From Thermoleophilia bacterium (lineage in GTDB: Bacteria; Actinomycetota; Thermoleophilia; BMS3ABIN01), in the NCBI GenBank assembly GCA_014874265.1, contig JACWAM010000026.1:1-47756 (forward strand): a stretch of 47,756 bases of DNA. Direction: 5' to 3'. This document shows, piece after piece, positions 1 to 13,558 of this stretch. The notes under the pieces are model-generated. The model saw only the letters and a list, made by a program, of their open reading frames with translations. It searched no databases and was not told where the DNA came from. Position numbers and translations under genes: made by a program. Positions within the stretch are counted from its first letter, which is position 1; each line of letters opens with the position of its first letter.

Positions 1-272
1 ACCGTGATCTCTGCCCCGGGAGCCGCCTTTTCCCGAACGGCTGCCAACAGTTCCCCAAGCAGGCTGGCTCCCAGCACAACCGGCGTGCCCCCGCCCAGGT
101 AAACCGTTTCCAGCGAGGCGGGCGGCAAGTCGTAGCTGTCCATCTCGCCGATAAGCGCCTCAACGTAAGCCGGCGCCAGATCCAATTTGCCGGTGGTGGA
201 ATAAAAATCGCAATAGCCGCAGCGGCTCATGCAAAAAGGTAAATGAATGTATAAATGAGAAACCGGATTCAT
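1..272 (-). CDS. hemW: HemW-type radical SAM protein, 5' part only
   Basis: The N-terminal ~90 residues of a radical SAM protein are visible; the gene runs off the left edge. The ATG at 272-270 opens a reading with C14, C18 and C21 (CMSRCGYC), the CxxxCxxC site for the 4Fe-4S/SAM cluster, preceded by the LYIHLPF stretch typical of HemW/HemN. A VYLGGGTP segment follows near residue 55, also a family hallmark. HemW is a heme-binding protein that was long annotated as oxygen-independent coproporphyrinogen III oxidase; the N-terminus alone cannot separate HemW from HemN, but the short lead before the cysteines favours HemW. It is divergent from the HprK-like gene (gap about 105 bases) and probably marks the conserved chromosome beside the surface-polymer locus. 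Confidence 0.9.
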   Translation of the reverse strand, partial: MNPVSHLYIHLPFCMSRCGYCDFYSTTGKLDLAPAYVEALIGEMDSYDLPPASLETVYLGGGTPVVLGASLLGELLAAVREKAAPGAEIT

Positions 273-377
273 CTTTCGCGGAGTCAGGCAATATCTGGTT
301 TGAAACTTGATATCTATGCTATCATCGCTTCAACTAGGGTTCCACGATTGCTATATTATGTCAGTCCGCATGCGCCC

Positions 378-1412
378 ATGACCAGCCTCAATACAATCGA
401 CAAGATCATTGAATACGGACAGCGGTCAAGCTCCGGTAAATTCATCATCAGCGATTATAACGTCCACGGTATTTCCACCCGGCTGATCACTGACTCTACG
501 AAAGTTTCGCAGGCGGTTGATGGCCTCCTCGATGGATTCAAGCCCGGGGCGGCGAAAGAGGACCCTGCGATTGAATTCTCTATCTTTTCGCGGGATGAGC
601 TGGACGGCGGGCCGGACGCGCCGGAGGGAACACCGCTACTCTATGACTGGGACGCGGTCAAGATCTTTCATGCAGATGACCGCCGGTACCTCCATCTCGA
701 CCGCCGCGCGCGCGTCAGCGCCGATTTAAGCCAGAGCCGCGCCGCCGGTTTCGTCCTCAGGGAGTCACTGGACTATGCGTGGCTCATTTCGCACCAGGTC
801 TTTTATCCTCTTTGGGGACAGATGATGAAGGAGCATGGTCTTTATCCCTTTCACGCCGCCGGTCTCACCCATAACGGAAGCGCCTTTCTCTTCTCCGGCC
901 GGAGCGGCAGCGGTAAATCTACCCTGTCTCTGGAGCTGGTGAGGAGCGGCTACGGGTTCTTAAGTGATGACACCGTGTTTTTACGGGAGAGCAACGGAGT
1001 AGTGGAAGCACTTTCCTTCCCGGAAGAGATCAATGTCACCGATGAGACACGGAAGCTGATCCCTGGACTTGATAAGGTGAAGAAGTTTAATATCGATATC
1101 CTGAGGCAGAAGTCGTCTTTTGCAATCGAGTCCCTCTTCCCCGGTTGCCGGCAGGATAGTGGCGTTCCGTCGATAATAATGTTTCCGGAAGTCACCGGCT
1201 CTGATACAACGGCATTCTTGCCGATGACACGAACAGAGGCGCTTGCTTTTTCGATGCGGTTTGGCTTTTTTTTCATTGACCCATCGACTACCGGCCGCCA
1301 CTTTGAGATACTTTCACTGCTGGTAAAGCAGGCGCGGTGTTACCGCCTGATGACGGGAACCAACCAGGAAGAATGGCTGCGGATGGTGACCAGCCTGCTT
1401 GACGGCTCCTGA
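378..1412 (+). CDS. HprK-like P-loop kinase (HPr-rel type)
   Basis: 344 residues from the ATG at 378. The P-loop GRSGSGKST starts at residue 174, preceded by PFHAAG and followed by a YGFLSDDT segment that resembles the Walker B region of HPr kinase/phosphorylase C-terminal domains. Such HprK-related proteins accompany PqqD-like and nucleotidyltransferase genes in HPr-rel and lasso-peptide-type clusters; in lasso clusters some phosphorylate the peptide. An in-frame reading reaches back to about 255, but that would overlap the divergent hemW start and adds no family sequence, so 378 was chosen; no clear ribosome binding site is visible. The PqqD-like gene follows 85 bases later on the same strand. 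The substrate is unknown. Confidence 0.82.
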   Translation: MTSLNTIDKIIEYGQRSSSGKFIISDYNVHGISTRLITDSTKVSQAVDGLLDGFKPGAAKEDPAIEFSIFSRDELDGGPDAPEGTPLLYDWDAVKIFHADDRRYLHLDRRARVSADLSQSRAAGFVLRESLDYAWLISHQVFYPLWGQMMKEHGLYPFHAAGLTHNGSAFLFSGRSGSGKSTLSLELVRSGYGFLSDDTVFLRESNGVVEALSFPEEINVTDETRKLIPGLDKVKKFNIDILRQKSSFAIESLFPGCRQDSGVPSIIMFPEVTGSDTTAFLPMTRTEALAFSMRFGFFFIDPSTTGRHFEILSLLVKQARCYRLMTGTNQEEWLRMVTSLLDGS

Positions 1413-1497
1413 GATGCCGCAAGGATGTGAAAGCAAGGTTGCTCCCGGCAGGCGAACCATGTGAAAGGAATTTTGAAAGGCTTAGTGAAAGGCACCG

Positions 1498-1800
1498 ATG
1501 ATTCAAAAAGACTCTTATCTGATTAAAGACAGCGACGTCGTGTTTACTTCCATGGGCGAAGACGCGGTGCTCCTGCACGTCCAGCGGGGAGATTATTACA
1601 GCCTGAACAAGGTCGGCGCCCGGCTCTGGGTTCTCAGCGACGGCACCAAGAGCGTTAGCGATCTGGCCGATCTGATCACCCGGGAATTCGAGATCTCCCG
1701 CGACCAGGCTGAAGCAGATGTCATCGAGCTGGCCGAGCAGCTGGAAAAAGAAGGCCTGGTGAGCGCCAGCGCCTCGCCCCAGGAAAGCAAACCGGCTTAA
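1498..1800 (+). CDS. PqqD-like peptide-binding protein
   Basis: 100 residues, the usual size for a stand-alone PqqD-family protein (winged-helix RiPP recognition fold). The central YSLNKVGARLW segment and the following DLADLITREF helix match the PqqD pattern. These domains bind a leader peptide and present it to a maturation enzyme (radical SAM, B2 protease or kinase). A GAAAGG stretch lies 5 bases before the ATG, and two further GAAAGG copies lie upstream. It sits between the HprK-like kinase and the nucleotidyltransferase, the order known from HPr-rel systems. No obvious precursor peptide adjoins it. The C-terminal ~12 residues are polar and probably unstructured. Confidence 0.85.
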   Translation: MIQKDSYLIKDSDVVFTSMGEDAVLLHVQRGDYYSLNKVGARLWVLSDGTKSVSDLADLITREFEISRDQAEADVIELAEQLEKEGLVSASASPQESKPA

Positions 1801-1987
1801 GACCAACGCCGCACTATTTGGCTTTCGGCCCTGTCGATTCAAGATGAACTTCGGCAAGGTCGACCATTCTGTTCTTCATTGCTCAACTACGCAGATTGTT
1901 CCACCGCACTTCAATTCTACTGCCGTTTAGCGTCAGATTTTTCTTTTAACATTTTGGTACATATGCTATTGTCTTTTTTACTCACCC

Positions 1988-3196
1988 ATGAATAACGAAT
2001 CAGAAAACAATTTAATTCTGGAGTCGGCCAGAACACTCTTAAAATCTGCAGATGATGCAAAATTTGCCAAGCTGCTGGCGAGATACCTGGACTGGGATTA
2101 TTTACTTGAAACTCTGAACCGTCACAAGCTGACGCCTCTTTTTTTTTGGCGCCTGAATGAATCAGGCCTGAGTGATCTTATAGCCGCCAACCAGTTTGAG
2201 AAACTAAGAACCATCTACCTGTCAAGTGTACTCAATAACCACAAGCTGTATCAGCACCTTTCCCGGGTGCTGGCCCTTTTTGCGGAGAAAGAAATCCCGG
2301 TCATCCTGCTCAAGGGCGCCGCTCTCGGCATCAACACTTATCCGGATTCAGCCCTGAGGCCGTTTGGCGACCTTGACATCATGGTCCATAAAAAAGATGT
2401 CAGGCAAGGCCAGAAATTGCTGGGGGATCTCGGCTACCAGCTTGTCAAAAATATCTATTTCCCTGTGCCCGATGAAAGAAACGACGAGCTGGGGTGCGAA
2501 TGGACATATCATCTCGATTCAACCGTGGTTGAATTACATTGGTCCTTAATTGACAAGCTCAACCCGTTTAATGTTGACATTGAGCGCTTCTGGAATAACG
2601 TCGAGCCAGTAAACGTGAATAAACAAAGAGCACTAGTTTTAAATCCGGCGAACCAGATTCTTCATCTCTGCCTGCATCAATCTAAACATCTCTGGAAGCA
2701 TTTGAGAGATCTGACAGACATCGGCCTGATTATGGAAAATTTCGCCGCTCGGATCGATTGGGAAAAGCTTTATTTCGATGCAAAATCCCAAGATCTGGAC
2801 TTATGTATTTTTTATTCGATCAGCCTTGCTCAAAAGGTCTTGGAAATTTCAGTCCCACCCGATGCAACCGATATTATGACCAAATTGAATCATTCCACTT
2901 TTATCGGCAAAGGCCTTGAGGAAATGATCGCTGCACATATCCTAGAAGAGCACTTGCCGCGCCGCTTTTGGAAATTGCTGACAGTTAAAGGAGCAAAAAA
3001 CAAGGTGATCTCGGCGACCAGCGCTCTATCTCATCCTTTGCCAAGATCACAAGAACGCACCAGCATTTCTGACATCAGAAAACCAGTTTCTTTTTTAGGG
3101 AAGGTGAGCGCAGCGTTTAAATCATCTTTTTATTACCGAAAACTGTTTTTTGAATTCCCACGTTACTTGGTAAAGAGTCTCTCACGAAAGCGCTGA
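1988..3196 (+). CDS. Uncharacterised nucleotidyltransferase family (NTP_transf_5-like)
   Basis: 402 residues. LLKGAAL (around residues 107-113) followed by RPFGDLDIMV (D128 and D130) is the metal-binding signature of the nucleotidyltransferase fold in the PF14907-type family. A conserved ELHWSL region follows near residue 180, and the C-terminal half is helical. Members occur beside PqqD and HprK-like genes in lasso-peptide and exosortase/HPr-rel loci; their acceptor is not established. The gene starts at ATG 1988, 187 bases after the PqqD-like gene, and ends 25 bases from the convergent secreted-protein gene. The last ~60 residues are basic and may be a tail. Confidence 0.8.
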   Translation: MNNESENNLILESARTLLKSADDAKFAKLLARYLDWDYLLETLNRHKLTPLFFWRLNESGLSDLIAANQFEKLRTIYLSSVLNNHKLYQHLSRVLALFAEKEIPVILLKGAALGINTYPDSALRPFGDLDIMVHKKDVRQGQKLLGDLGYQLVKNIYFPVPDERNDELGCEWTYHLDSTVVELHWSLIDKLNPFNVDIERFWNNVEPVNVNKQRALVLNPANQILHLCLHQSKHLWKHLRDLTDIGLIMENFAARIDWEKLYFDAKSQDLDLCIFYSISLAQKVLEISVPPDATDIMTKLNHSTFIGKGLEEMIAAHILEEHLPRRFWKLLTVKGAKNKVISATSALSHPLPRSQERTSISDIRKPVSFLGKVSAAFKSSFYYRKLFFEFPRYLVKSLSRKR

Positions 3197-3221: not shown

Positions 3222-4895
3222 TTAATTGCTGGCGACATCTCCAAAATATGTTAGAAATTGACTTACACCGGGTGGCACTTTATAAAACACGGTGAAAGCT
3301 TTCGACGAACCTCCGGCCAAATCTCCCAAGCCCAGAGGTAAATCAGTTTCTGTTTCCACTCCGTTTGAGTTAACAATTGAGCCAATGTTTACCGAATGAA
3401 CTGTAGCCTGGCTGTTATTAGTTAGTTGAAAATCAACAGATAATTTGCCATCCATATAATCACTTAAATTCGCCCAGCCGGTAGATTGCTCAGTCAAATT
3501 TAGTCCGGTTGCTGAGCGGATGGTGGCATTACCAGGTGTTGTTATCTGATAATCCCCACTTTCCGCCAAATTGCCCTGGGAATCCGAGCTCTTGATTCTG
3601 ATTTCGTAAGTGGTGCCACTTTTAAGGTCATTAAGTTGCAACGAATGAATATTTGTCATGCTATCGTCATATTTATCAACTGTCCAATTACCGCCATTCG
3701 ATTTAATCTCTACAACCGAATTCGCAATAATATTTGTATTCCAGGCAATGTTGGCAAGATTTGAGCCTTGGACCTGAGTAGAAACTGAGGAGATGTCGGG
3801 GCCCACGTTTGGGATGCTCTGAGCAAGATCGATTCTGTATGTATCTGTCCACGACGTACCGGCAGGCAACCAACGATAGCGGTTCCCTTGGGGTGGGTTC
3901 CCGCTCCACCACGCCATCCAGCTAATGATTTGCGAACCTGCCATGCCGCCCAGAATTGAGCATTGCTCCTCCATTGGATCTGCAGATGTGCCCCAGGCTT
4001 TCATTCCAATCTGGTAAGAGCCACTGCCGCGGAAACCTTCTCCATTATTGTCGGCGGACATGATCACGGTGGGCGCTTTGGTTGAACCGGTGAAAGCCGC
4101 CCAATCGGGCTGAAATTGGTTTAGCTGATCCCAGCATTGTGCTGTTTCATCAGCAATGCCCGTACTGCCCAGCAGATAGCGCGGTGAATTCGATGATTCT
4201 GCCCAGCCACGGCCATATTTGACGAAACGGTCCCATCCGAGATTGTAATTCCAGTTATCTCGCACAGCCAGTTCTGAGAAATATCCCGATGAAAGCAAGC
4301 TCCTGCTCACTTGAAGATGTATCGTACCTGCTGGTTCAACAGTCCAGGTTTTAGTCACTTCATACCATTCTTTGCCGGTCGTCTGGTTATGTACTTTATA
4401 TGTAAAAGTCAAAACCGCATCGCCTTGGCTATCAATAGAAGCCGAATGCGACTGAAGCACACCACTCAAATTATTATCAGAGATTAAATCAGTGAAATTA
4501 TTATTTTGATCAGCACCTGGTTTGATATCTGCCGCATAGAGATCGGTGCTGCCAACTCCACCAATTCCAGCCCAAATATTTGTTGAAGTTGGATAACCGT
4601 ACTTTATGTAAGATACAAGATTGTAAGATTGTGACGGATCCATGGGTTTATAGTAAAGTTCATACAGATTGCCACCGCCTTGGTTATAGTTATCAACCGC
4701 AATAGTTTTGTAATGCCAAACCGCTTTGATCGTGTTTGTCTCGACAGTCACGTATCCGTTGGCAACATCCTCATGAATTGCGAGCGAATCGCCCAATGCA
4801 GAAGCCTGATTCTGAGAAGAGAAACTGACTGGTAGCAAGACAGATGCCAGAATAACTAGCAATATTTTCAATTTCTTTTGCACTTTAGCTTCCAT
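3222..4895 (-). CDS. Secreted beta-sandwich protein with FN3 domain, riboswitch-linked
   Basis: About 557 residues. The N-terminus has a lysine-rich segment, a hydrophobic core (ILLVILASVLLPVSF) and a QASA site, giving a Sec signal peptide. Residues ~35-360 form a long beta-rich, aromatic-rich region that resembles carbohydrate-active or mutarotase-like sandwiches only in general character. An FN3-like domain spans about 365-455 (GTTYEIRIKSSDSQGN is diagnostic), followed by a ~90-residue C-terminal beta domain. No sortase, TM or PEP-CTERM tail is seen. The ATG at 4895 abuts the aptamer; a GTG at 4883 with GGAAG five bases upstream is an attractive alternative start that keeps the whole signal peptide. 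A matrix or polysaccharide-acting exported protein under cyclic-dinucleotide control is the likely role; the activity is unknown. Confidence 0.8.
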   Translation of the reverse strand: MEAKVQKKLKILLVILASVLLPVSFSSQNQASALGDSLAIHEDVANGYVTVETNTIKAVWHYKTIAVDNYNQGGGNLYELYYKPMDPSQSYNLVSYIKYGYPTSTNIWAGIGGVGSTDLYAADIKPGADQNNNFTDLISDNNLSGVLQSHSASIDSQGDAVLTFTYKVHNQTTGKEWYEVTKTWTVEPAGTIHLQVSRSLLSSGYFSELAVRDNWNYNLGWDRFVKYGRGWAESSNSPRYLLGSTGIADETAQCWDQLNQFQPDWAAFTGSTKAPTVIMSADNNGEGFRGSGSYQIGMKAWGTSADPMEEQCSILGGMAGSQIISWMAWWSGNPPQGNRYRWLPAGTSWTDTYRIDLAQSIPNVGPDISSVSTQVQGSNLANIAWNTNIIANSVVEIKSNGGNWTVDKYDDSMTNIHSLQLNDLKSGTTYEIRIKSSDSQGNLAESGDYQITTPGNATIRSATGLNLTEQSTGWANLSDYMDGKLSVDFQLTNNSQATVHSVNIGSIVNSNGVETETDLPLGLGDLAGGSSKAFTVFYKVPPGVSQFLTYFGDVASN

Positions 4896-4896
4896 T

Positions 4897-4975
4897 GGCA
4901 ACCAGGCTGTCTCTCTAAGAGAGACCCTTGGCTTTGCGCCCCTACCTCACAGCAGGTTTGCTTTTGTCTGAAGGC
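4897..4975 (-). promoter_or_regulatory. GEMM-I cyclic-dinucleotide riboswitch aptamer
   Basis: Read on the minus strand, the conserved GEMM-I blocks occur in order: GCAAACC (4961-4955); a P2 hairpin with a GUGA (GNRA) tetraloop (4956-4941, loop 4950-4947); GGCGCAAAGCC (4940-4930); a P3 arm with a perfect 7-bp GTCTCTC/GAGAGAC stem (4925-4909); and AGCCTGGTTGCC (4908-4897). By alignment to the Vibrio Vc2 aptamer, the base before GCAAACC that corresponds to G20 is A (position 4962). G20 is typical of c-di-GMP sensors, while A20 marks the Geobacter-type variants that bind 3',3'-cGAMP or both ligands. The aptamer ends directly at the start of the secreted-protein gene, so control of translation initiation is likely. 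Confidence 0.88.
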
Positions 4976-5141
4976 TAAGTGCTTTGAACGGGTGGGCTCT
5001 TCTCCCCATAAGGCACACTATTCAATCAGTGTGCACCTGCCCCAAACGTACTTATTAATTAATTCGGCATTTTTATTAATTTATTAATTGCTTTCTGAAA
5101 CCGACGAATCGTTAAAAAAGAAAAGGGACTTGAGGCTGAAA
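4976..5141 (-). other. Leader/promoter region upstream of the riboswitch
   Basis: This gap between the methyltransferase stop and the aptamer should hold the promoter of the riboswitch transcript. It contains a perfect 7-bp hairpin, GCACACT/AGTGTGC with an 8-base loop (5013-5034), not followed by a T run on either strand and so unlike a terminator. Further from the gene is a very AT-rich tract (5052-5089). No convincing -35/-10 pair could be fixed. Confidence 0.45.
5052..5089. repeat. Three copies of TTATTAATT upstream of the riboswitch
   Basis: TTATTAATT occurs at 5052-5060, 5073-5081 and 5081-5089 in an AT-rich tract upstream of the riboswitch leader. It could be an UP-like element or a binding site for an AT-preferring DNA-binding protein, or simply low-complexity DNA. 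Confidence 0.5.
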
Positions 5142-6065
5142 TTACGATATCCTTTTAATCCAGAAACTGCCAGGAAAAGTTATGCCAGGTTGATATGACG
5201 CAAAAGCCTCACTAAGTTTTTCGGGAAAATTTTGATTAAAGTAATTTCCGGACCAGACTACTTCGAAGCAGTTATTGAATGACATGAAGGCTTGTAACAG
5301 ATATTGTTCATTCCAAAATACATGTTTTTTTATAACCCACTTTTTGGGATATTGCGCGGGTAGAAAAATATCATGGATATGAATTAATACTCCTGCATTG
5401 ACACGAGGGATAATTTCCAAATACTCAAACTGAACATCACTGCCAATTTTTAGCACGTGGCTTGAATCAATGAACAAAATATCATTTGGCCCCAATGTTT
5501 CAAATAATGAATAAGAGACTTCTTCAACAGGCTGTTTGATAACCTTTGTTAATTCTGGAAACCCTCTTTCTATGACACTGGTTGGATAAGGATCAATAAC
5601 CGTCAATTCGCAATCATAATTCTTGTTTTCTTCCTTTGTTTTTCGAATTGCCTGCCCTGAGATCAAAGTAGAAAAACCTGAACCTACCTCGAGGATCTTT
5701 CGTGGCTGAAAAAATCGCACCATTGAATATAATATTTCAGCATCAACAGACTCATAGCTGCCATTTTCTAAAAAAAAGCGATGATTTTTACTTGGAGTTT
5801 GCTGCTTAGGAAATTGGCTATATTCCTGTTTATATCTAGCAGAAAAAAAACTAAGTAATTCAAGTTGTTTTTTTTCATTTATATTTAATCCAATCATTTC
5901 GGAATTGTTTCGCCAAAGACTTTCGTTTAGTTTACGGGTATCAGGTATTGGTTCATAAAAATGATTTTCAACCAAATGAATTCCTAATTTTTGCGCCATC
6001 GGAAAACTTACTTTTATTCCGCGTTTTAAAATACCATGATAAATTTTTGACAGATTAATGTTCAT
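5142..6065 (-). CDS. Class I SAM-dependent methyltransferase (Methyltransf_24-like)
   Basis: 307 residues. The SAM-binding motif I is ILEVGSGFSTL, about 140 residues in; an acidic VIDPYP follows, then DILFIDSSH and a late IHIHDIFLPAQYP segment typical of the Methyltransf_24 group, often linked to sugar or small-molecule O-methylation. The first ~110 residues are a lysine- and aromatic-rich helical extension. It overlaps the GT4 gene by 11 bases and is the last gene of the minus-strand block. It is notably AT-rich compared with the genes on the right half of the window. A sugar O-methyltransferase of the polymer is plausible but not proven. Confidence 0.8.
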   Translation of the reverse strand: MNINLSKIYHGILKRGIKVSFPMAQKLGIHLVENHFYEPIPDTRKLNESLWRNNSEMIGLNINEKKQLELLSFFSARYKQEYSQFPKQQTPSKNHRFFLENGSYESVDAEILYSMVRFFQPRKILEVGSGFSTLISGQAIRKTKEENKNYDCELTVIDPYPTSVIERGFPELTKVIKQPVEEVSYSLFETLGPNDILFIDSSHVLKIGSDVQFEYLEIIPRVNAGVLIHIHDIFLPAQYPKKWVIKKHVFWNEQYLLQAFMSFNNCFEVVWSGNYFNQNFPEKLSEAFASYQPGITFPGSFWIKRIS

Positions 6066-7203
6066 TATCCAATATTACGTGTTCATAAAGTTTTATTAGT
6101 TTCTTAATCATAATATCTTCCGAGAAGTATTCTTTTACTTTGCGCTTGCCGCTAGAAGCTAATGATTTGCGCAATTCTTCATCTTGAGCCAATTGGATGA
6201 TCGCCTTCGCCATCGCGTTATAATCGCCTGGCGGGATCAGTATGCCATCTTCCCCGTTAGCGACAACTTCAGCCGAGCCTCCACCTCCTGTTGCGATCAC
6301 GGCGCGCCCTGACATCATTGCCTCCAAAATCACGATGCCCAATCCTTCGGGCCGAATTGACGGAATTACAAATAAATTGCATTTCTCGAGGAACGGCTGT
6401 ATTTCGGTTTGAAAACCAACAAAATTTACCCGGCTGTCCAATCCTAGTTTACTGGCGAGTTGCTTTAACTCCTCTCGGTATCCATACCGGTTACCATAGA
6501 CATCGCCAACAATATACGCCTCAAGATTAATCCCGGTCTGAATAGCAAGTGCCAGGGCCTTCAGAAATACATCTTGACCTTTGTAAGGCGCGAGTCTTCC
6601 TACCGTGGTAATAACAAAACGGTCATCTTTACGTTCTGTCTTTGTAAAATCGAATAGGCCAGAGGGGATGCCATCGTTAATGATACTTCCTTTAAGTTTA
6701 AATCCTTTTAAAAAAAATTGTTCTTGCACTGCGGCTGTAATAAAAACGACCCGCTTTGAAAGCATGAGAACAAATGGTTCATATAAACGCAATACCCAGC
6801 CGAATTCATCCAGAATTTCTCTAAATTGCCAGACATGTGGAGTTCTGGTGATCTCCGATGCAACCGCACCACCAATAATCACACCTGTATTGGTATGTAC
6901 TAAGTCAAAATGCTCACTGCGAATCAATCGCACAAGTTGCCAAGTAGCAAGAGGGGTCCTAAGAAAAAGTTTTGCTAGCCCTGAAACTGATAAAACTTCT
7001 CTGCGGAACACGATAGGATCAAGAATATGAACGACGGCGCCGGCATTTGTCAATTCTTTTACTAATGGACCGGTAGAAGGCACTGTGACATGCAAATTCA
7101 CACCATTAGCGACCAAACCCTTGGCGGCGCTCAGCAAACATCTGTCTGAGCCGTATAATTCGGCAGACGAATGAACAATCAATATTTTTTTTCCGGCAAG
7201 CAA
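6055..7203 (-). CDS. GT4 family glycosyltransferase
   Basis: 382 residues in two Rossmann-like domains. The N-terminal part has a YGSDRCLLSAAKGL loop (acceptor side); the C-terminal part has VGRLAPYKGQD and the EX7E-type motif in PEGLGIVILEAM, which binds the nucleotide-sugar. This is a retaining GT-B enzyme acting on the cytoplasmic face. The start is a TTG at 7203, seven bases after the stop of the O-antigen ligase/polymerase gene, with GAAG just upstream. Donor and acceptor sugars cannot be deduced. Confidence 0.87.
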   Translation of the reverse strand: MLAGKKILIVHSSAELYGSDRCLLSAAKGLVANGVNLHVTVPSTGPLVKELTNAGAVVHILDPIVFRREVLSVSGLAKLFLRTPLATWQLVRLIRSEHFDLVHTNTGVIIGGAVASEITRTPHVWQFREILDEFGWVLRLYEPFVLMLSKRVVFITAAVQEQFFLKGFKLKGSIINDGIPSGLFDFTKTERKDDRFVITTVGRLAPYKGQDVFLKALALAIQTGINLEAYIVGDVYGNRYGYREELKQLASKLGLDSRVNFVGFQTEIQPFLEKCNLFVIPSIRPEGLGIVILEAMMSGRAVIATGGGGSAEVVANGEDGILIPPGDYNAMAKAIIQLAQDEELRKSLASSGKRKVKEYFSEDIMIKKLIKLYEHVILDNEH

Positions 7204-7209
7204 AATGCT

Positions 7210-8640
7210 TCATATCTCTTTAGCTGTTTGAGACTCCTGCGCAGCTATCTCGGCTACTGCAACTGCGAGACCAGCAAAAATCCAGGGAAATCCTAACCAT
7301 ATAAAAGAAGAAGCCTGCGAGGCAATAAAGATGACAACACTGGCTACGGCAAATCCAGCCAATGAAGCACGATAAAAAGGATCTTTAGTTCTACGATAAC
7401 CGCGCAAAACGATAACAATAACTCCAACATTGAACCATAAAAGAAAACCGAGGCCTACTATTCCAGTGTCATGAAGTGCCTGGACTACCGAACTGTATAA
7501 CCACGAACCTGCTGTCGATGATCCTGAGATAGCTAAATTCTTAGGAAATGAAAGCGTGCCGTTTCCCAGCATGACTGCATTTTCCCAGCGGTCTAGTGCA
7601 ATTTTTTCGACATTTATTCTTCCAACCGTTGATACAGTACCAAAATTAAGAATGTCATTAACACGTTGGGAAATGCCACCACTTGTAAGGGCGTTTGTAA
7701 AAGGTATGGCAATGACAAATACAGTCGCCAATATCGCTATCGAGGCAGCGGCTGCACGTGGATTAAAAATGTTCCGGGAAGGTTTTTGCAAAAATATTAG
7801 AAATAAAAGACCAACTCCAAACCCTACCCAAGAAGCACGGGTATAGGTCATAGCCACAACGACTAAAACCAGCACGAGGCCGAAAAGTGAAAAAGATTTT
7901 TTTATCTGTGTTTTTTTAGCAGTCATCAAGGCAAGAAATATTATGCCCATCGCAACCCCGAAGGCACCTAAAAAATTAGGCTCTTCAAAACCGCCTTGCA
8001 AGCTTGTCTTCCCTTGAATCTGGTTTTCTGCCACACCCAAAAGGTCAATGCCTGCGTGATGAGCCGTAAAAGCGATCAGGGCATAAATACACTGAAAAAT
8101 TCCCAGCGCCAACATTATTTTTACCACAGATTTAAGCTTCTTCGGATGGTCCCTAAGCACCATGACGCTCATCACATACATCAGCGCATAAATGCCAAGC
8201 TCAAACGCCCACCTGTAACTGTCAGGCCTATCTAACGCGTAAAGATTTGTGGAAATGAAGTTAACTGCAATATAGAGTGTGATTGGCAATAATAATGGGA
8301 CTCTGTTCAATTTTGCCCTGCCTATTAGCAAGGCAGGAATCCAGCCCAATAGTAGGATCAACAACGCAAGTTGTTCTGGATGAATTGTTAATCCCCCAAG
8401 AACAAATTTGGTCTCGCCCAATGTGGAAGCAATAAGTAATAGCAGCCAGGCTCGATAAGTGTTTAAACCAATTAAGAAAAGGATTAACCCACCAAGTAGA
8501 ATAATTATTAACAACCATCCTACGTTTCGAAACATTAAACTTAACAACAAACCAAAAAACAGACCAAGAGCTATTTGCTTGAATAACTTACTTTGGTCTG
8601 ATGGAGTTATTAAGTTTGAGCTTTTTGCCAAATTATTCAT
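7210..8640 (-). CDS. O-antigen ligase/polymerase family membrane protein (Wzy/WaaL-like), copy 1
   Basis: 476 residues with about 11-13 hydrophobic segments and one larger extracytoplasmic loop (around residues 310-385), the layout of the Wzy_C superfamily. A GGFEEPNFLGAF motif precedes a membrane segment, and an arginine in a YTRASWVG motif lies about 55 residues later, as in this family. It would polymerise repeat units or ligate the polymer to its carrier at the outer face of the membrane. It lies between the Wzz-like gene and the GT4 gene. It is clearly diverged from the other two copies (20142 and 38332), which carry a YHRSSST motif instead. Confidence 0.85.
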   Translation of the reverse strand: MNNLAKSSNLITPSDQSKLFKQIALGLFFGLLLSLMFRNVGWLLIIILLGGLILFLIGLNTYRAWLLLLIASTLGETKFVLGGLTIHPEQLALLILLLGWIPALLIGRAKLNRVPLLLPITLYIAVNFISTNLYALDRPDSYRWAFELGIYALMYVMSVMVLRDHPKKLKSVVKIMLALGIFQCIYALIAFTAHHAGIDLLGVAENQIQGKTSLQGGFEEPNFLGAFGVAMGIIFLALMTAKKTQIKKSFSLFGLVLVLVVVAMTYTRASWVGFGVGLLFLIFLQKPSRNIFNPRAAAASIAILATVFVIAIPFTNALTSGGISQRVNDILNFGTVSTVGRINVEKIALDRWENAVMLGNGTLSFPKNLAISGSSTAGSWLYSSVVQALHDTGIVGLGFLLWFNVGVIVIVLRGYRRTKDPFYRASLAGFAVASVVIFIASQASSFIWLGFPWIFAGLAVAVAEIAAQESQTAKEI

Positions 8641-8718
8641 TTTTGGAAGGCGATCAGGAGAGCATCATCATCTATACCACTACAATTTGAACAACTAGAA
8701 TTCTAATGTATTGTCAAA

Positions 8719-9480
8719 TTACAATGACTTACGAACTGACTCGCTAATAAAAGCGAGCACAATACCGCCGATTAAACCAATGACCAAAGCAATAGCAATT
8801 TTTTCAGTATTAGCCATGCCCACTCTTTGATAAGTATCTGCGGCACTCGTCACGCGGACATCGCCTGCATCTGTCTCTTGGCTTATCAGACTTTCATAAT
8901 CTTTGGCAATGGCATCCCTACGATCCTGCAATGCTTTAACTGTAGAAGTGTCGACATTTGGTGATGAGTTTTGTTGATTAATCTGCTTTTCGACATCCTG
9001 TAACTGATTTGTCATCTCATTTTGAGCATCTTGAAAGCTGGTCTTGCTGACATCGCTAATGTATCCCACGAATGCGTTTGATACAGAATTTGCGAGCAAT
9101 TGTGCTCTACCAGGATCAGTATCCGTGACAGTTATACTTAATACTGGCGTATCCTGGGTATTTGATGCTGATACTTCAGAACGCAAACGAGTTGTAGACC
9201 AATTTAATTTTGCAACTTGAAGGGCTTTTTGCATCACGGGATCTGCTGTCACCAGCTCAACAAATGTTGCGCTAATTCCCTGCCCGCTTGCCGCGATATT
9301 GACCCCTTGACTACCAGAAGAAGTAATTTGTGATAATCCAGCAACCAGAGTCGTATCAGCCTCATATGAACTTTGGCTCCGCGTACTACTGAAGATCACA
9401 TAAGCCGTAACGACAACGATTACAGCCAACACCATCCATTTCCATCTTTTAATTACTCCAATAAATTCAACTAAATCCAT
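8719..9480 (-). CDS. Wzz-like polysaccharide co-polymerase (chain-length determinant)
   Basis: 253 residues with an N-terminal TM helix (about 14-31), a periplasmic or extracytoplasmic helical coiled region rich in Q, N and E (about 125-190), and a C-terminal TM helix (about 224-244) ending in a short basic tail. This is the PCP topology. There is no tyrosine-kinase domain or Tyr-rich tail, so it resembles a PCP-1 or an adaptor of the CapA/Wzz type. GAGAG lies seven bases before the ATG. A 58-codon frame ends on the start codon (TAATG). It is placed next to a Wzy-like gene, as expected for a Wzx/Wzy-dependent system. Confidence 0.85.
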   Translation of the reverse strand: MDLVEFIGVIKRWKWMVLAVIVVVTAYVIFSSTRSQSSYEADTTLVAGLSQITSSGSQGVNIAASGQGISATFVELVTADPVMQKALQVAKLNWSTTRLRSEVSASNTQDTPVLSITVTDTDPGRAQLLANSVSNAFVGYISDVSKTSFQDAQNEMTNQLQDVEKQINQQNSSPNVDTSTVKALQDRRDAIAKDYESLISQETDAGDVRVTSAADTYQRVGMANTEKIAIALVIGLIGGIVLAFISESVRKSL

Positions 9481-9656
9481 TAATTACTCTCTTTCATTGA
9501 ATAATCATAACCCATTCCCAGAGGATTCATTGGACAATTTTTTTCGATGTCATCCAGATTGTTTATTTCCAACAGAATTGCCCCAAAAATATTCGACCAC
9601 TTGTGAAAAAACCTTTTGTATTTAGTTTTCGCCCCGCTTGCATGAAAAAAATTCAA
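9480..9656 (-). CDS. Possible small protein (58 codons) coupled to the Wzz-like gene
   Basis: The 188-base gap between the GT2 and Wzz-like genes is mostly filled by an open frame of 58 codons from TTG 9656. It ends in TAA whose last A is the A of the wzz-like ATG (TAATG), the spacing seen in coupled genes. The predicted product is lysine-rich at the N-terminus and has NNLDDIEKN near the middle; no family is recognised and no clear ribosome binding site precedes the TTG. A shorter version (30 codons) could start at an internal TTG with GGGG eight bases upstream. It may be a real small gene, a remnant, or chance. Confidence 0.3.
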   Translation of the reverse strand: MNFFHASGAKTKYKRFFHKWSNIFGAILLEINNLDDIEKNCPMNPLGMGYDYSMKESN

Positions 9657-9668
9657 ATAAATTATTTT

Positions 9669-10676
9669 TTAAATCGAAACCTTCAACGAAGTTCCTCGAT
9701 ATTTCGCTTCCAGCTCGGAGCAAAATGAATATGCATATTCAGTATTATGAAGACTAAGATGCAATGCTGTTCTTGTATATGCGAACAGCTCCGAATCTTT
9801 TGTCTGGAAACGTTGCCTGCCCTGTGTCGTTAGCTTCAATGCCAGCACAGTTAAAAAACGAACAAATAAAGATGTGGTTAGAAAAAGGCCAAATAAACAA
9901 TAACGAAATCCTTTGAGCTGGCCTAAAGAGGATGCAATACAAAAATAGCTGCCTAACCAAAGGAGATTAATGGGTGCGACGGTGGTGCTGCTGGCGCCAC
10001 CATAATGGACTACCCTAATATGGGGTAACAAATGTAATTGCCAACCGGCGCGTCTCAGACGCAAACCATACTCGATATCCTCTGCATACATGAAGTGTTT
10101 ATCATCAAGAAGACCAACTTGATCAACAACTTTTTGCTTAATCACTATGCAAGTTCCCGCTAGCCAGTCTACTGACTGGATCCCCTCTTTTTGCTTTGCT
10201 CTTATTTTTAACCCACGCGGCGTACCTCTTAACGTTCCCAAGCCGGCAATTTGCCTCAGCGCCGCCGTCAATGAAGGCTTATAACCAGCGCTATCCTGCA
10301 TTCTGCCGTCTTTGCCAACTAATTGTGGACCAACCATCGCGACTTTATCATTCTTTTCCAAGTAATCAATAAATATTGTAAAAATATCGTCAGGTACAAC
10401 GGTATCTGAATTTATCAATGCAATAAAACCGGTGGTGCTGCTGCTCTTGATTCCCTGGTTAACTGCTCGTGGAAATCCCACATTATGATCATTCTCATGC
10501 ACTTTTATGCTTGAGAAGGATGATCGAACCATGCCCACACTATCATCCGAAGAGGCATTATCAATCACAATTATTTCATGATTTATATCAGCTGCGGCAA
10601 TTTCGACAGATTCCAGACATTTCCTTAATAAATCTCTGGTATTGAAGCTGACAATTATTATTGATAATTCTGGCAT
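9669..10676 (-). CDS. GT2 glycosyltransferase (WbbL/rhamnosyltransferase-like)
   Basis: 335 residues. It begins with LSIIIVSFNTRDLLRKCL, typical of GT2; the metal-binding acidic motif is in ALINSDTVV, and a MYAEDIEYGLRLRRAGW segment supplies the ED catalytic-base region. The C-terminal ~90 residues contain a hydrophobic stretch that may contact the membrane. This is an inverting GT-A enzyme of the WbbL group, several members of which transfer rhamnose, in keeping with rmlC/rmlD downstream. A close counterpart is the gene at 25478-26443; both lie next to a SPASM radical SAM gene. Confidence 0.87.
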   Translation of the reverse strand: MPELSIIIVSFNTRDLLRKCLESVEIAAADINHEIIVIDNASSDDSVGMVRSSFSSIKVHENDHNVGFPRAVNQGIKSSSTTGFIALINSDTVVPDDIFTIFIDYLEKNDKVAMVGPQLVGKDGRMQDSAGYKPSLTAALRQIAGLGTLRGTPRGLKIRAKQKEGIQSVDWLAGTCIVIKQKVVDQVGLLDDKHFMYAEDIEYGLRLRRAGWQLHLLPHIRVVHYGGASSTTVAPINLLWLGSYFCIASSLGQLKGFRYCLFGLFLTTSLFVRFLTVLALKLTTQGRQRFQTKDSELFAYTRTALHLSLHNTEYAYSFCSELEAKYRGTSLKVSI

Positions 10677-10734
10677 TTATATTCAGTACAACGGTGTTTA
10701 GGGATAAAACATACAAGGTCCATCAGCTGTATAA

Positions 10735-11853
10735 TTACGTTTGTGGTCTTCCCCACAGAGGCCAAAGATATTTATAAATCTTGACGTTCTGAATCGTGCG
10801 TTCACATCCCAGGCAACGGCTTTTCGGAAGTGATTCTTGCGTTCTATGCATTTTCAAAGCCATATCATTTAGCTCCCGATGGCGCTTGTTAAACCAGATC
10901 GACTCGAAGGATTCATTGCCTAGATTTCCCATTACTTCACGGCTCACACAACAATATGTGACATCCCCATTAGCCAAAATGAAAGGAAAAAGCCAGCCGG
11001 CAAAACACGGCGCAGGAATAATTTCATTTTCACGAATTGCTTGTAACTCATTATACGAATCGATATCTGTACCTATTTTGTTTTTTACCGCTATTGGTTT
11101 TACCAGCGAGAAAAACTCATCCAAGTTTCGCAGGTCGTTTTTATCCATTTCATACCGCGATATATTAGAGAAAATATGAAGTGGTCGATAACTAACAAAG
11201 TTCGCTCCTGTATCAATACCAACCTGCATCATGTCAGGTACTCTTTGATAATTCAGCTTACTAATCACATTAGATAATGACAATTCTGGTTTTCTAAGAG
11301 ACCGGGAAAGTTTAAATTCCTTAAGCCAAACAAGTTTCTCTACTATTCTGTCAAATACTTCATTTTCTTGATTGGCGTGAACCAACCCGTATTCATCACT
11401 GGCACCAGCATTTAAACTCACGCTAAGAACGTCAAGGTCCGCATCGATCAGTTCTTCAAGTAGTTCCTCTGTCATTAATGAACCATTTGTTGTCAAACGC
11501 ACATTCATCTTTAATGATTTTGCAAAAGCTACCGCCTCTACAATTCGTTTATGTAACAGCGGTTCACCAATTCCGGCGAAACATATACGACGGTTGCCGG
11601 TTTTATGGAGGCTTGTTATGAGTTTCTTGTAAATATCAAAATCCATTACCGTAGCTTTGTTCTCTTTATTGGCATGATAATTACGAGCCAATTCATCGGC
11701 CCCCCAGCCTTCCAGTTCAGACGAATGCTCCCAGCACATAATGCACCGATAATTACATGCATCAACAATGCTCATTTGAACCGAAAGCGGCCCGGCAATG
11801 ATTTTCCTTGAAATAATGCCAGATATTATTTTTGCACCGAGCGCATATTCCAT
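10735..11853 (-). CDS. Radical SAM/SPASM protein, copy 1
   Basis: 372 residues from ATG 11853 (GGAA lies nine bases upstream); a TTG at 11868 would give 377, exactly the length of the paralogue at 26588. The CxxxCxxC site is C33, C37 and C40 (ACNYRCIMCWEHSS). The C-terminal SPASM part has CFAGWLFPF, VTYCCVSREVMGNL and SRCLGCER cysteines for auxiliary Fe-S clusters. FAGIGEPLLH matches the GGEPL-like SAM-binding loop. Known relatives modify peptides or act on carbohydrate or lipid precursors; the substrate here is unknown. It lies between the GT2 gene and the Wzx flippase gene. Confidence 0.87.
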   Translation of the reverse strand: MEYALGAKIISGIISRKIIAGPLSVQMSIVDACNYRCIMCWEHSSELEGWGADELARNYHANKENKATVMDFDIYKKLITSLHKTGNRRICFAGIGEPLLHKRIVEAVAFAKSLKMNVRLTTNGSLMTEELLEELIDADLDVLSVSLNAGASDEYGLVHANQENEVFDRIVEKLVWLKEFKLSRSLRKPELSLSNVISKLNYQRVPDMMQVGIDTGANFVSYRPLHIFSNISRYEMDKNDLRNLDEFFSLVKPIAVKNKIGTDIDSYNELQAIRENEIIPAPCFAGWLFPFILANGDVTYCCVSREVMGNLGNESFESIWFNKRHRELNDMALKMHRTQESLPKSRCLGCERTIQNVKIYKYLWPLWGRPQT

Positions 11854-11927
11854 TAGATACGATTCCAATAAATAAATGTCGCCAAAGCAATCAATCGTTA
11901 CGAACCCAGGCTAAAGTCCTCAATCTA

Positions 11928-11953
11928 ATGCGGACAAAAGCTCTTTTCCGCAT
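11928..11953. other. Inverted repeat between SPASM and Wzx genes
   Basis: ATGCGGA (11928-11934) and TCCGCAT (11947-11953) form a 7-bp stem, with a nested AAAG/CTTT-type symmetry inside. No T run follows on either strand, so it is not a standard terminator. The 148-base gap also holds an AT-rich stretch (11975-12012) that could carry a promoter for the SPASM gene. Confidence 0.45.
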
Positions 11954-12016
11954 CAGCAAATCGATAGAATTAAACATCTTCCATACTTAAATACTAAGTT
12001 AAATTTTATCACGTTC

Positions 12017-13558
12017 TCATCCCGCAACCTTTGCTCTGGCAAGTTTAGCTCTTAACTGGCTTAGCATCGCTGAATCGTCCTTATCTATTCCCATAAGAAT
12101 AATTGAAGCACCGTAAAGTGTAATCAACACCAGAGTCCAGACAATAACCGAGGCAATTCCGGACCCGAGCGGCGCGAGATTGAACCCTAGCAAAGTTAGA
12201 AGACAGGCGATTGAACTTGCTACGCCCAGTTTGAAGAAATTTAAACTATAGGGGTGAACTTTCATCAACCAATATACTTCCAAAGCCCTGAGAATGTTCA
12301 CCGATGCCGCAGCTGATGCGTTGGCGATCGCCGCACCGGGAATGCCCCATCGGGGAATTAGAATTACACAAATGACCAAACTTATTATCCAACTTAATAA
12401 ATTATTAAATAACTCCAGCCCTGAGCGACCTGACATAATAATCATCACACCGACAGGCCCTGTCAAAACGTTGATCATTTGTCCTACAGCTAATATAATT
12501 AAACTTCCTGAGACCACCGTAAATTGCGTGCCGAATACTTTTAGCATATATGAAGGAAATATCATTAGTGGTAAGAAAACTGGCAAGCTCAACATGATAG
12601 TCCAGCGAGTAACTTTTGTATAAAGCTCGGCCAGTTCACCATGCCTGCTGCGAGTAATTAATTCAGAAATCACAGGCGCAAACATCGTACTGAAAGCCAC
12701 CTGCACTGTGGCTGCGATTATTATGATGCGTACTGCAACGCTATAAAGCCCAACTTGGTGTGCGGTCCCATAATAACCCAGTAAAATCGTATCCATATAC
12801 AATAATAAATAAGCCAAAACCTGTGACATCCCCATGGGGGCTGAAAATTTGATCGTCTCTCTAATCCGCATCTGTATTTTTTCCTTGCTCGTAACCATTG
12901 GGTAAACTTTTTCGAGAAAGTACAACGAAATGACCGTAACAACTGCGATGGCTATTAAATTCGCCCACAATGCACCCCCCAGTTTTAACCCGAGCAAGAA
13001 CAAACCTGCCGTCAGAAAAAATCGAAGTCCTTGCTCTATGATGTCCCTATAGACGGCATAGCGCATGATTTGAAAACCTTGGGTAGCCGCATTGAAAATG
13101 CGCGCCAGTAACAATAGAGGTATCGTCAAAGCAAACATTTTTAAAGGAAATGCAAAATCGCCGTTGCTGAACACCAGATTGGAAATAGGCTCCGCGAAAA
13201 ATATCAAGAGAATGGAAAAAATGATACTTACTGGCAAAGATATCAAAATTGAGCTAAAAAAAGCGCCACGCAGCTTTCTAAAGTCGCGTTTCGCAAAATA
13301 GGCAGAAATATAACGCCATAGACCCATATCCAGGCCAAATCCACAAGCGTAAAGACCCACAAAAGCCAATGCCGTACCAAAAGAATAATATCCTAAATCG
13401 GAGACGGTGAGGACGTGAGAAATCACCAGCATGGTTCCGAAGCTGAAGATCGTCCTTAAAATAGTGCCGAAGAAATTAACACCGGCTCCAGACGCAATGT
13501 GTAACATATCGATGGAACCAGGTGTTCTCTGTTTTTCTAAATCTGAGTTATTTGACAC
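12017..13558 (-). CDS. Wzx-type polysaccharide flippase, copy 1
   Basis: 513 residues with 12-14 hydrophobic segments, the MOP/MVF superfamily size. The sequence around FNAATQGFQIMRYAVYRDIIEQ is shared with the two other flippases of the window. It would move lipid-linked repeat units across the cytoplasmic membrane. The start is GTG 13558; an internal ATG 17 codons in is also possible because the first residues are polar and variable. It follows the AP-superfamily gene at 33 bases on the same strand, the pairing repeated twice more on the right side. Confidence 0.87.
   Translation of the reverse strand: MSNNSDLEKQRTPGSIDMLHIASGAGVNFFGTILRTIFSFGTMLVISHVLTVSDLGYYSFGTALAFVGLYACGFGLDMGLWRYISAYFAKRDFRKLRGAFFSSILISLPVSIIFSILLIFFAEPISNLVFSNGDFAFPLKMFALTIPLLLLARIFNAATQGFQIMRYAVYRDIIEQGLRFFLTAGLFLLGLKLGGALWANLIAIAVVTVISLYFLEKVYPMVTSKEKIQMRIRETIKFSAPMGMSQVLAYLLLYMDTILLGYYGTAHQVGLYSVAVRIIIIAATVQVAFSTMFAPVISELITRSRHGELAELYTKVTRWTIMLSLPVFLPLMIFPSYMLKVFGTQFTVVSGSLIILAVGQMINVLTGPVGVMIIMSGRSGLELFNNLLSWIISLVICVILIPRWGIPGAAIANASAAASVNILRALEVYWLMKVHPYSLNFFKLGVASSIACLLTLLGFNLAPLGSGIASVIVWTLVLITLYGASIILMGIDKDDSAMLSQLRAKLARAKVAG

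Follow-up and report, generated by a model that had tools for sequence, protein, structure and literature searches.

Introduction

The RNA described in this work has a GEMM-I (c-di-GMP-I) aptamer, and its closest described relatives are Vc2, the c-di-GMP-I riboswitch of V. cholerae (RF01051), and the GEMM-Ib or 3′,3′-cGAMP riboswitch of Geobacter (4YAZ). Three bases contact the ligand, that is, G20, A47, and C92 in the numbering of Vc2: position 20 is the ligand discriminator, the A47 equivalent stacks between the bases of the ligand, and the ligand's other G forms a base pair with the C92 equivalent. Control in Vc2 is based on P1; Vc2 is described as a translational OFF switch, and its position 20 as contributing to selectivity without being a hard filter (PMC9262584). 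The G20A variant of Vc2 binds cGAMP (PMC7288161, PMC6274999) and has been crystallized (3MUM), also with cGAMP (4YB1) (PMC10671752, PMC6274999). One report gives a Kd of 0.011 nM for the complex of Vc2 with c-di-GMP (PMC9049102), and a 30,000-fold loss of affinity upon mutation of G20 is quoted in another (PMC4744006).

In the Geobacter riboswitch, A14, A41, and C75 are the equivalents of A20, A47, and C92 (PMC6274999), and the first base pair of P2 is C15-G40; its control is ON, that is, the transcripts with cGAMP riboswitches drop when the cGAMP synthase is deleted (PMC6456294). In the Hypr GGDEF enzymes, Ser or Thr occupies the position of Asp344 of PleD (PMC9140294, PMC6456294). Rfam also contains the variants c-di-GMP-I-UAU (RF03168) and c-di-GMP-I-GGC (RF03167); judging from the model consensuses, their names appear to record positions 20/47/92 (U20/A47/U92 and G20/G47/C92, respectively).

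We analyzed a contig of 47,756 nucleotides (the window; G000:C3) from the 2.0-Mb, 97% complete genome of a sediment actinobacterium.

A GEMM-I aptamer with A at the discriminator position

In a cmscan of the whole window, a single RNA family exceeds its gathering score; it lies at 4893–4971 on the minus strand. The top Rfam match is RF03168 (E 1e-12, 68.0 bits against a gathering score of 65.9); RF01051 matches at 4894–4972 on the same strand (E 4e-13, 67.2 bits against a cut-off of 35). The aptamer and its pocket bases are as follows.

4893–4971, minus strand: GEMM-I (c-di-GMP-I) aptamer (RF03168, 68.0 bits; RF01051, 67.2 bits)
4962, minus strand: A at the Vc2 G20 position, the ligand discriminator (cmscan alignment, model position 10; A likewise in L036/L049)
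4961/4936, minus strand: base pair G21-C46, adjoining position 20 in the cmscan alignment
4935, minus strand: A47 equivalent (cmscan alignment)
4898, minus strand: C92 equivalent (cmscan alignment; C here, whereas the UAU consensus has U)

The blocks of the aptamer are complete, that is, J1/2, the pairs G21-C46 and C22-G45, CAAACC, P2 with a GUGA (GNRA) loop, and P3. The three-helix fold, A47, C92, G21-C46, and the GNRA loop of P2 are shared with Vc2; unlike Vc2, the window RNA has A for G20, so two of the three ligand contacts are present (A20/A47/C92). Membership in the GEMM-I fold stands, and the canonical ligand contact at position 20 is absent; this is a known fold with a rare discriminator base and not a categorically new one. 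The initial annotation had recognized a GEMM-I aptamer from its ordered blocks, GNRA P2 loop, and P3 stem, and the RF01051 and RF03168 matches and the alignment bear this out; it had also assigned A (the complement of 4962) to the equivalent of Vc2 G20, which is right to the base. The boundaries of the span that it had proposed, 4897–4975, are approximately four bases off the model limits.

The UAU model scores best in the window, and the aptamers of the relatives score best with the GGC model, including the orthologous aptamer L036 (GGC, not UAU); by its key nucleotides, however, the window RNA belongs to neither variant. It has neither the U20 nor the U92 of the RF03168 consensus (A20 and C92 are found), and the UAU name is misleading for an RNA that is A/A/C.

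Distribution and origin of A20

The same leader in a second species (G014, leader L036; public record L049), which encodes a protein that is 88% identical, also has A20; because this orthologous leader shares the base, A20 in the window is not a sequencing or assembly error. G20 is found in the orthologous leaders from two species of the window's genus (L031 and L035) and from two other genera (L053 and L066), whose proteins share 46–55% identity, as well as in the more distant leaders L041 and L044; A20 is confined to the window leader (L001) and L036/L049. At the pocket positions compared, the A20 and G20 orthologous leaders differ by no further change. By parsimony, we infer that G20A arose once in this leader, in the ancestor of the two species.

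The 19 genomes of the family contain 59 GEMM-I aptamers, of which 56 have G20 and three have A20; the remaining three GEMM-I aptamers in the window's genome are all G20. The third A20 aptamer of the family is L059 (G005), with G20 in its close relatives, and the first P2 pair is G21-C46 in all three. An automated base census had listed L028 as a fourth; read by eye, it is G20. A class-wide search for the A20 pattern (399 genomes) matched non-GEMM-I sequences as well, and only confirmed GEMM-I aptamers were counted; it yielded two more, L152 (G076) and L156 (G045). L059, L152, and L156 are apparently independent A20 GEMM-I aptamers. Because G20 prevails in the orthologous leaders and in the aptamers of the family, and the A20 members are scattered, these alignments indicate that A20 is a rare, repeated, and derived change.

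Two further observations concern the GEMM-I aptamers in general. Two GEMM-like aptamers close to a start codon, L076 (G008:C2, 42.5 bits) and L077 (G006:C2, 40.7 bits), are divergent: in them, GGCGACC replaces GGCAAACC and GCAAGCAAAGCC replaces GACGCAAAGCC. They form a possible variant class. Pairs of GEMM-I aptamers approximately 10 kb apart on opposite strands are found in G001:C39, G003:C8, G006:C17, G008:C6, and G018:C7.

The controlled gene and its locus

The aptamer precedes a gene for a secreted protein, with exopolysaccharide genes on its other side.

3222–4883, minus strand: controlled gene, secreted protein of 553 aa (signal peptide, FN3 at approximately 367–449, C-terminal Ig-like region; GUG start at 4883–4881)
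5142–13558, minus strand: exopolysaccharide genes (methyltransferase, GT4, Wzy_C, Wzz, GT2, radical SAM, and flippase, from Pfam)

The AlphaFold model of the controlled protein has low confidence (pLDDT 59.5), and Foldseek matches FN3/Ig only; no assignment of the N-terminal domain was gained. The related records retrieved with this protein are actinobacterial MAGs. When 20-kb regions from seven genomes were compared, the orthologues were found to adjoin GT4, Wzy, Wzz, flippase, or NTP_transf_5 genes in G014, G008, G010, G017, G007, and G015; in G011, the contig starts at the leader, so the polysaccharide side is invisible and only an HprK-like gene is common. The proximity of a secreted protein to a polysaccharide locus, also put forward in the initial annotation, is confirmed and is mostly conserved among the compared genomes. 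On the plus strand of the window (255–3196), a gene for an HprK-related kinase followed by an NTP_transf_5 gene adjoins the exopolysaccharide locus, and these are located near it in several relatives.

A predicted expression platform upstream and downstream of the aptamer

The leader contains the following elements in addition to the aptamer.

4969–4982, minus strand: 5′ strand of P1, GCACUUAGCCUUCA, common to P1 and anti-P1 (folds and duplex test)
4880–4894, minus strand: 3′ strand of P1, UGGAAGCUAAAGUGC, containing the Shine-Dalgarno sequence and the GUG start (folds)
4889–4893, minus strand: Shine-Dalgarno-like GGAAG (sequence and alignment; AAGGAG or AAGGAAG in most leaders)
5033–5047, minus strand: conserved anti-P1 strand, GUUUGGGGCAGGUGC, complementary to 4966–4982 (alignments, nascent folds, duplex energy against shuffles, pair count)
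5013–5034, minus strand: hairpin GCACAC...GUGUGC (arms invariant in five of six leaders, with G-U changes in the sixth; two-base overlap with the anti-P1 strand)
5002–5007, minus strand: conserved GGGGAG of the upstream element (alignment)
5063–5068, minus strand: GCCGAA, weakly similar to a -10 of the sigma-28/WhiG promoter type (conserved in leaders)

In the predicted folds, P1 covers both the Shine-Dalgarno sequence and the GUG start, which is conserved across the aligned leaders. An AUG at 4895–4893 is in frame, but it is not conserved and has no Shine-Dalgarno sequence, so it was rejected in favor of the conserved GUG at 4883. The state with P1 over the Shine-Dalgarno sequence and start is the predicted energy minimum in five of the six orthologues, and the pairing of the P1 strands beats shuffles in four of six leaders (p<0.04); this pairing is poor in G017 (p 0.75 against shuffles), which counts against the generality of the switch. 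P1 is very stable in the thermodynamic model even when ligand-free; therefore, a switch would need kinetic control.

A second conserved element (4974–5047, minus strand) directly precedes the aptamer. Its first 15 bases, the 5033–5047 strand that was absent from the initial annotation, complement the 5′ P1 strand together with part of J1/2. This anti-P1 duplex has an energy of -18 to -22 kcal/mol, compared with shuffle means of -8 to -10 kcal/mol (p≤0.002 in all six leaders, that is, at most two of 1000 shuffles equal the observed energy in each), and 94% of cells pair in register compared with 33–48% when the strands are slid. Covariation in anti-P1 is not above that in shuffles of the six leaders because most positions are invariant. 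In nascent folds, the anti-P1 helix is wholly or partly formed in all six leaders; in those of the window, it persists up to nucleotide 160, until the 3′ strand of P1 has been made, and P1 is present from nucleotide 170 onward. The GGGGAG(G) and the GCACAC/GUGUGC hairpin (5002–5047, minus strand; also in L031, L035, L036, L053, and L066) are conserved beyond the needs of an anti-P1 strand.

A covariance model of the upstream element (R1), run on the 19 genomes, matches six places, each directly 5′ of this aptamer; with no match away from this leader in these genomes, and no Rfam match at E≤5, the element was rejected as an independent riboswitch. Instead of an anti-P1 strand, the element could still be an operator at the DNA level or another aptamer: GCACAC-N10-GTGTGC is an inverted repeat close to the presumed promoter, and no role is assigned to the conserved GGGGAGG. 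We consider this unlikely, since the spacer varies in length (10 and 13), the R1 matches are restricted to this leader (six of 19 genomes), no Rfam family matches the element, and it complements the P1 strand far better than shuffles do.

As for the promoter-like box, the pattern TA(A/G)A-N13-17-(G/C)(C/T)CGA(T/A) occurs before 13 of the 53 GEMM-I leaders of the family that were scanned, compared with 0.8 expected in shuffles (e.g., L043, L045, L053, L054, and L067); the window leader itself deviates from this sigma-28/WhiG-like pattern in its -35.

Ligand and mechanism

In our best reading, to which we assign a probability of roughly 0.6, the leader is a c-di-GMP switch that turns translation OFF and in which A20 lowers affinity or relaxes specificity. 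The leader (4881–5047, minus strand) would be a two-state GEMM-I riboswitch in which ligand turns off translation of the secreted protein. The nascent RNA would first form anti-P1 (5033–5047 with 4966–4982), holding the 5′ strand of P1 away and leaving the Shine-Dalgarno sequence open, and the ligand-free RNA would stay in this state long enough for ribosome loading; once the aptamer is complete and ligand is bound, P1 would replace anti-P1 and bury the Shine-Dalgarno sequence and the GUG start. We infer this folding order and the OFF direction from the folds and duplex tests, which predict an OFF switch of the Vc2 kind with an upstream antisequestor, in contrast to the ON control of Geobacter GEMM-Ib (PMC6456294). 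Also unlike Vc2, the window RNA has a conserved anti-P1 strand 5′ of its aptamer, and this arrangement of the expression platform is probably new.

G20A most likely lowers the affinity for c-di-GMP and relaxes specificity, so the switch would fire at higher c-di-GMP than its G20 orthologues. By our own arithmetic, the quoted 30,000-fold loss applied to the reported 0.011 nM would give approximately 0.3 μM c-di-GMP, plausibly within cellular reach. The window's genome contains 16 GGDEF matches, 13 with Asp and one with Asn at the Hypr signature position; the other two are a degenerate match that lacks the GGDEF motif and a contig-end fragment without the signature position. Thus, 13 of the 14 readable domains carry the Asp of diguanylate cyclases, and none has the Ser or Thr of a Hypr GGDEF. 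A SMODS (DncV-like) domain was not found in this genome and is absent in 17 of 18 relatives (the E. coli control was detected; the CD-NTase search used the SMODS model only). Given that Asp-type diguanylate cyclases are present and no cGAMP synthase is recognized, the most economical explanation is a c-di-GMP switch that has been detuned or relaxed.

Alternatively, A20 could be loss-of-function drift, in which case the aptamer would be unresponsive and P1 alone would fix a constant low translation. The rarity and scatter of A20 (three of 59 family aptamers) and the large loss of affinity quoted for the G20 mutation in Vc2 (PMC4744006) are consistent with drift; however, apart from A20, the aptamer is conserved between the two A20 species, whose proteins are 88% identical, as are the anti-P1 strand and P1, and we regard drift as improbable.

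The initial annotation had linked A20 to 3′,3′-cGAMP. A true cGAMP sensor resembling GEMM-Ib would share the A20/A47/C92 triplet with Geobacter (PMC6274999), Vc2 G20A does bind cGAMP (PMC7288161, PMC6274999), and cGAMP might be supplied by an unrecognized enzyme, for example, an unusual GGDEF protein with Asn at the substrate-reading position that is conserved in the family (G000:C68:15337-15837, L013/L121; a GGEEF protein with GHQAGN, in which Asn replaces the guanine-reading Asp). This protein, however, is present in 17 of the 19 family genomes (16 orthologues, L122–L137), including those in which the orthologous leader is G20; therefore, it is a lineage trait and was rejected as a partner that explains A20. 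(L194 in G045 resembles this protein.) The window RNA is derived from a G20 leader, the other three GEMM-I aptamers of the genome are G20, and the first P2 pair is G21-C46, unlike C15-G40 in Geobacter, a pair that may not be defining. The GGDEF domains in the other A20 genomes (G005, G045, and G076) include no Ser or Thr among those that are readable, several being unread. Thus, with neither a Ser/Thr-type Hypr GGDEF nor a SMODS CD-NTase recognized in a 97% complete genome (one GGDEF fragment unread), the genome gives no support for the link to cGAMP, and the synthase search removes its main support; we judge a cGAMP sensor to be slightly less probable than drift. Less probable still is a cGAMP pathway outside the deltaproteobacteria, with A20 leaders sensing cGAMP from the Asn-signature GGDEF and G20A having moved one gene from the c-di-GMP to the cGAMP regulon.

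Implications

These leaders provide a natural experiment, in which one leader in front of one gene carries A20 in two sister species and G20 in others. The set could reveal what a single base does in nature, be it a retuned affinity, a relaxed specificity, or a switch of signal. In addition, the expression platform of this GEMM-I subgroup can be tested directly through its conserved upstream anti-P1 strand.
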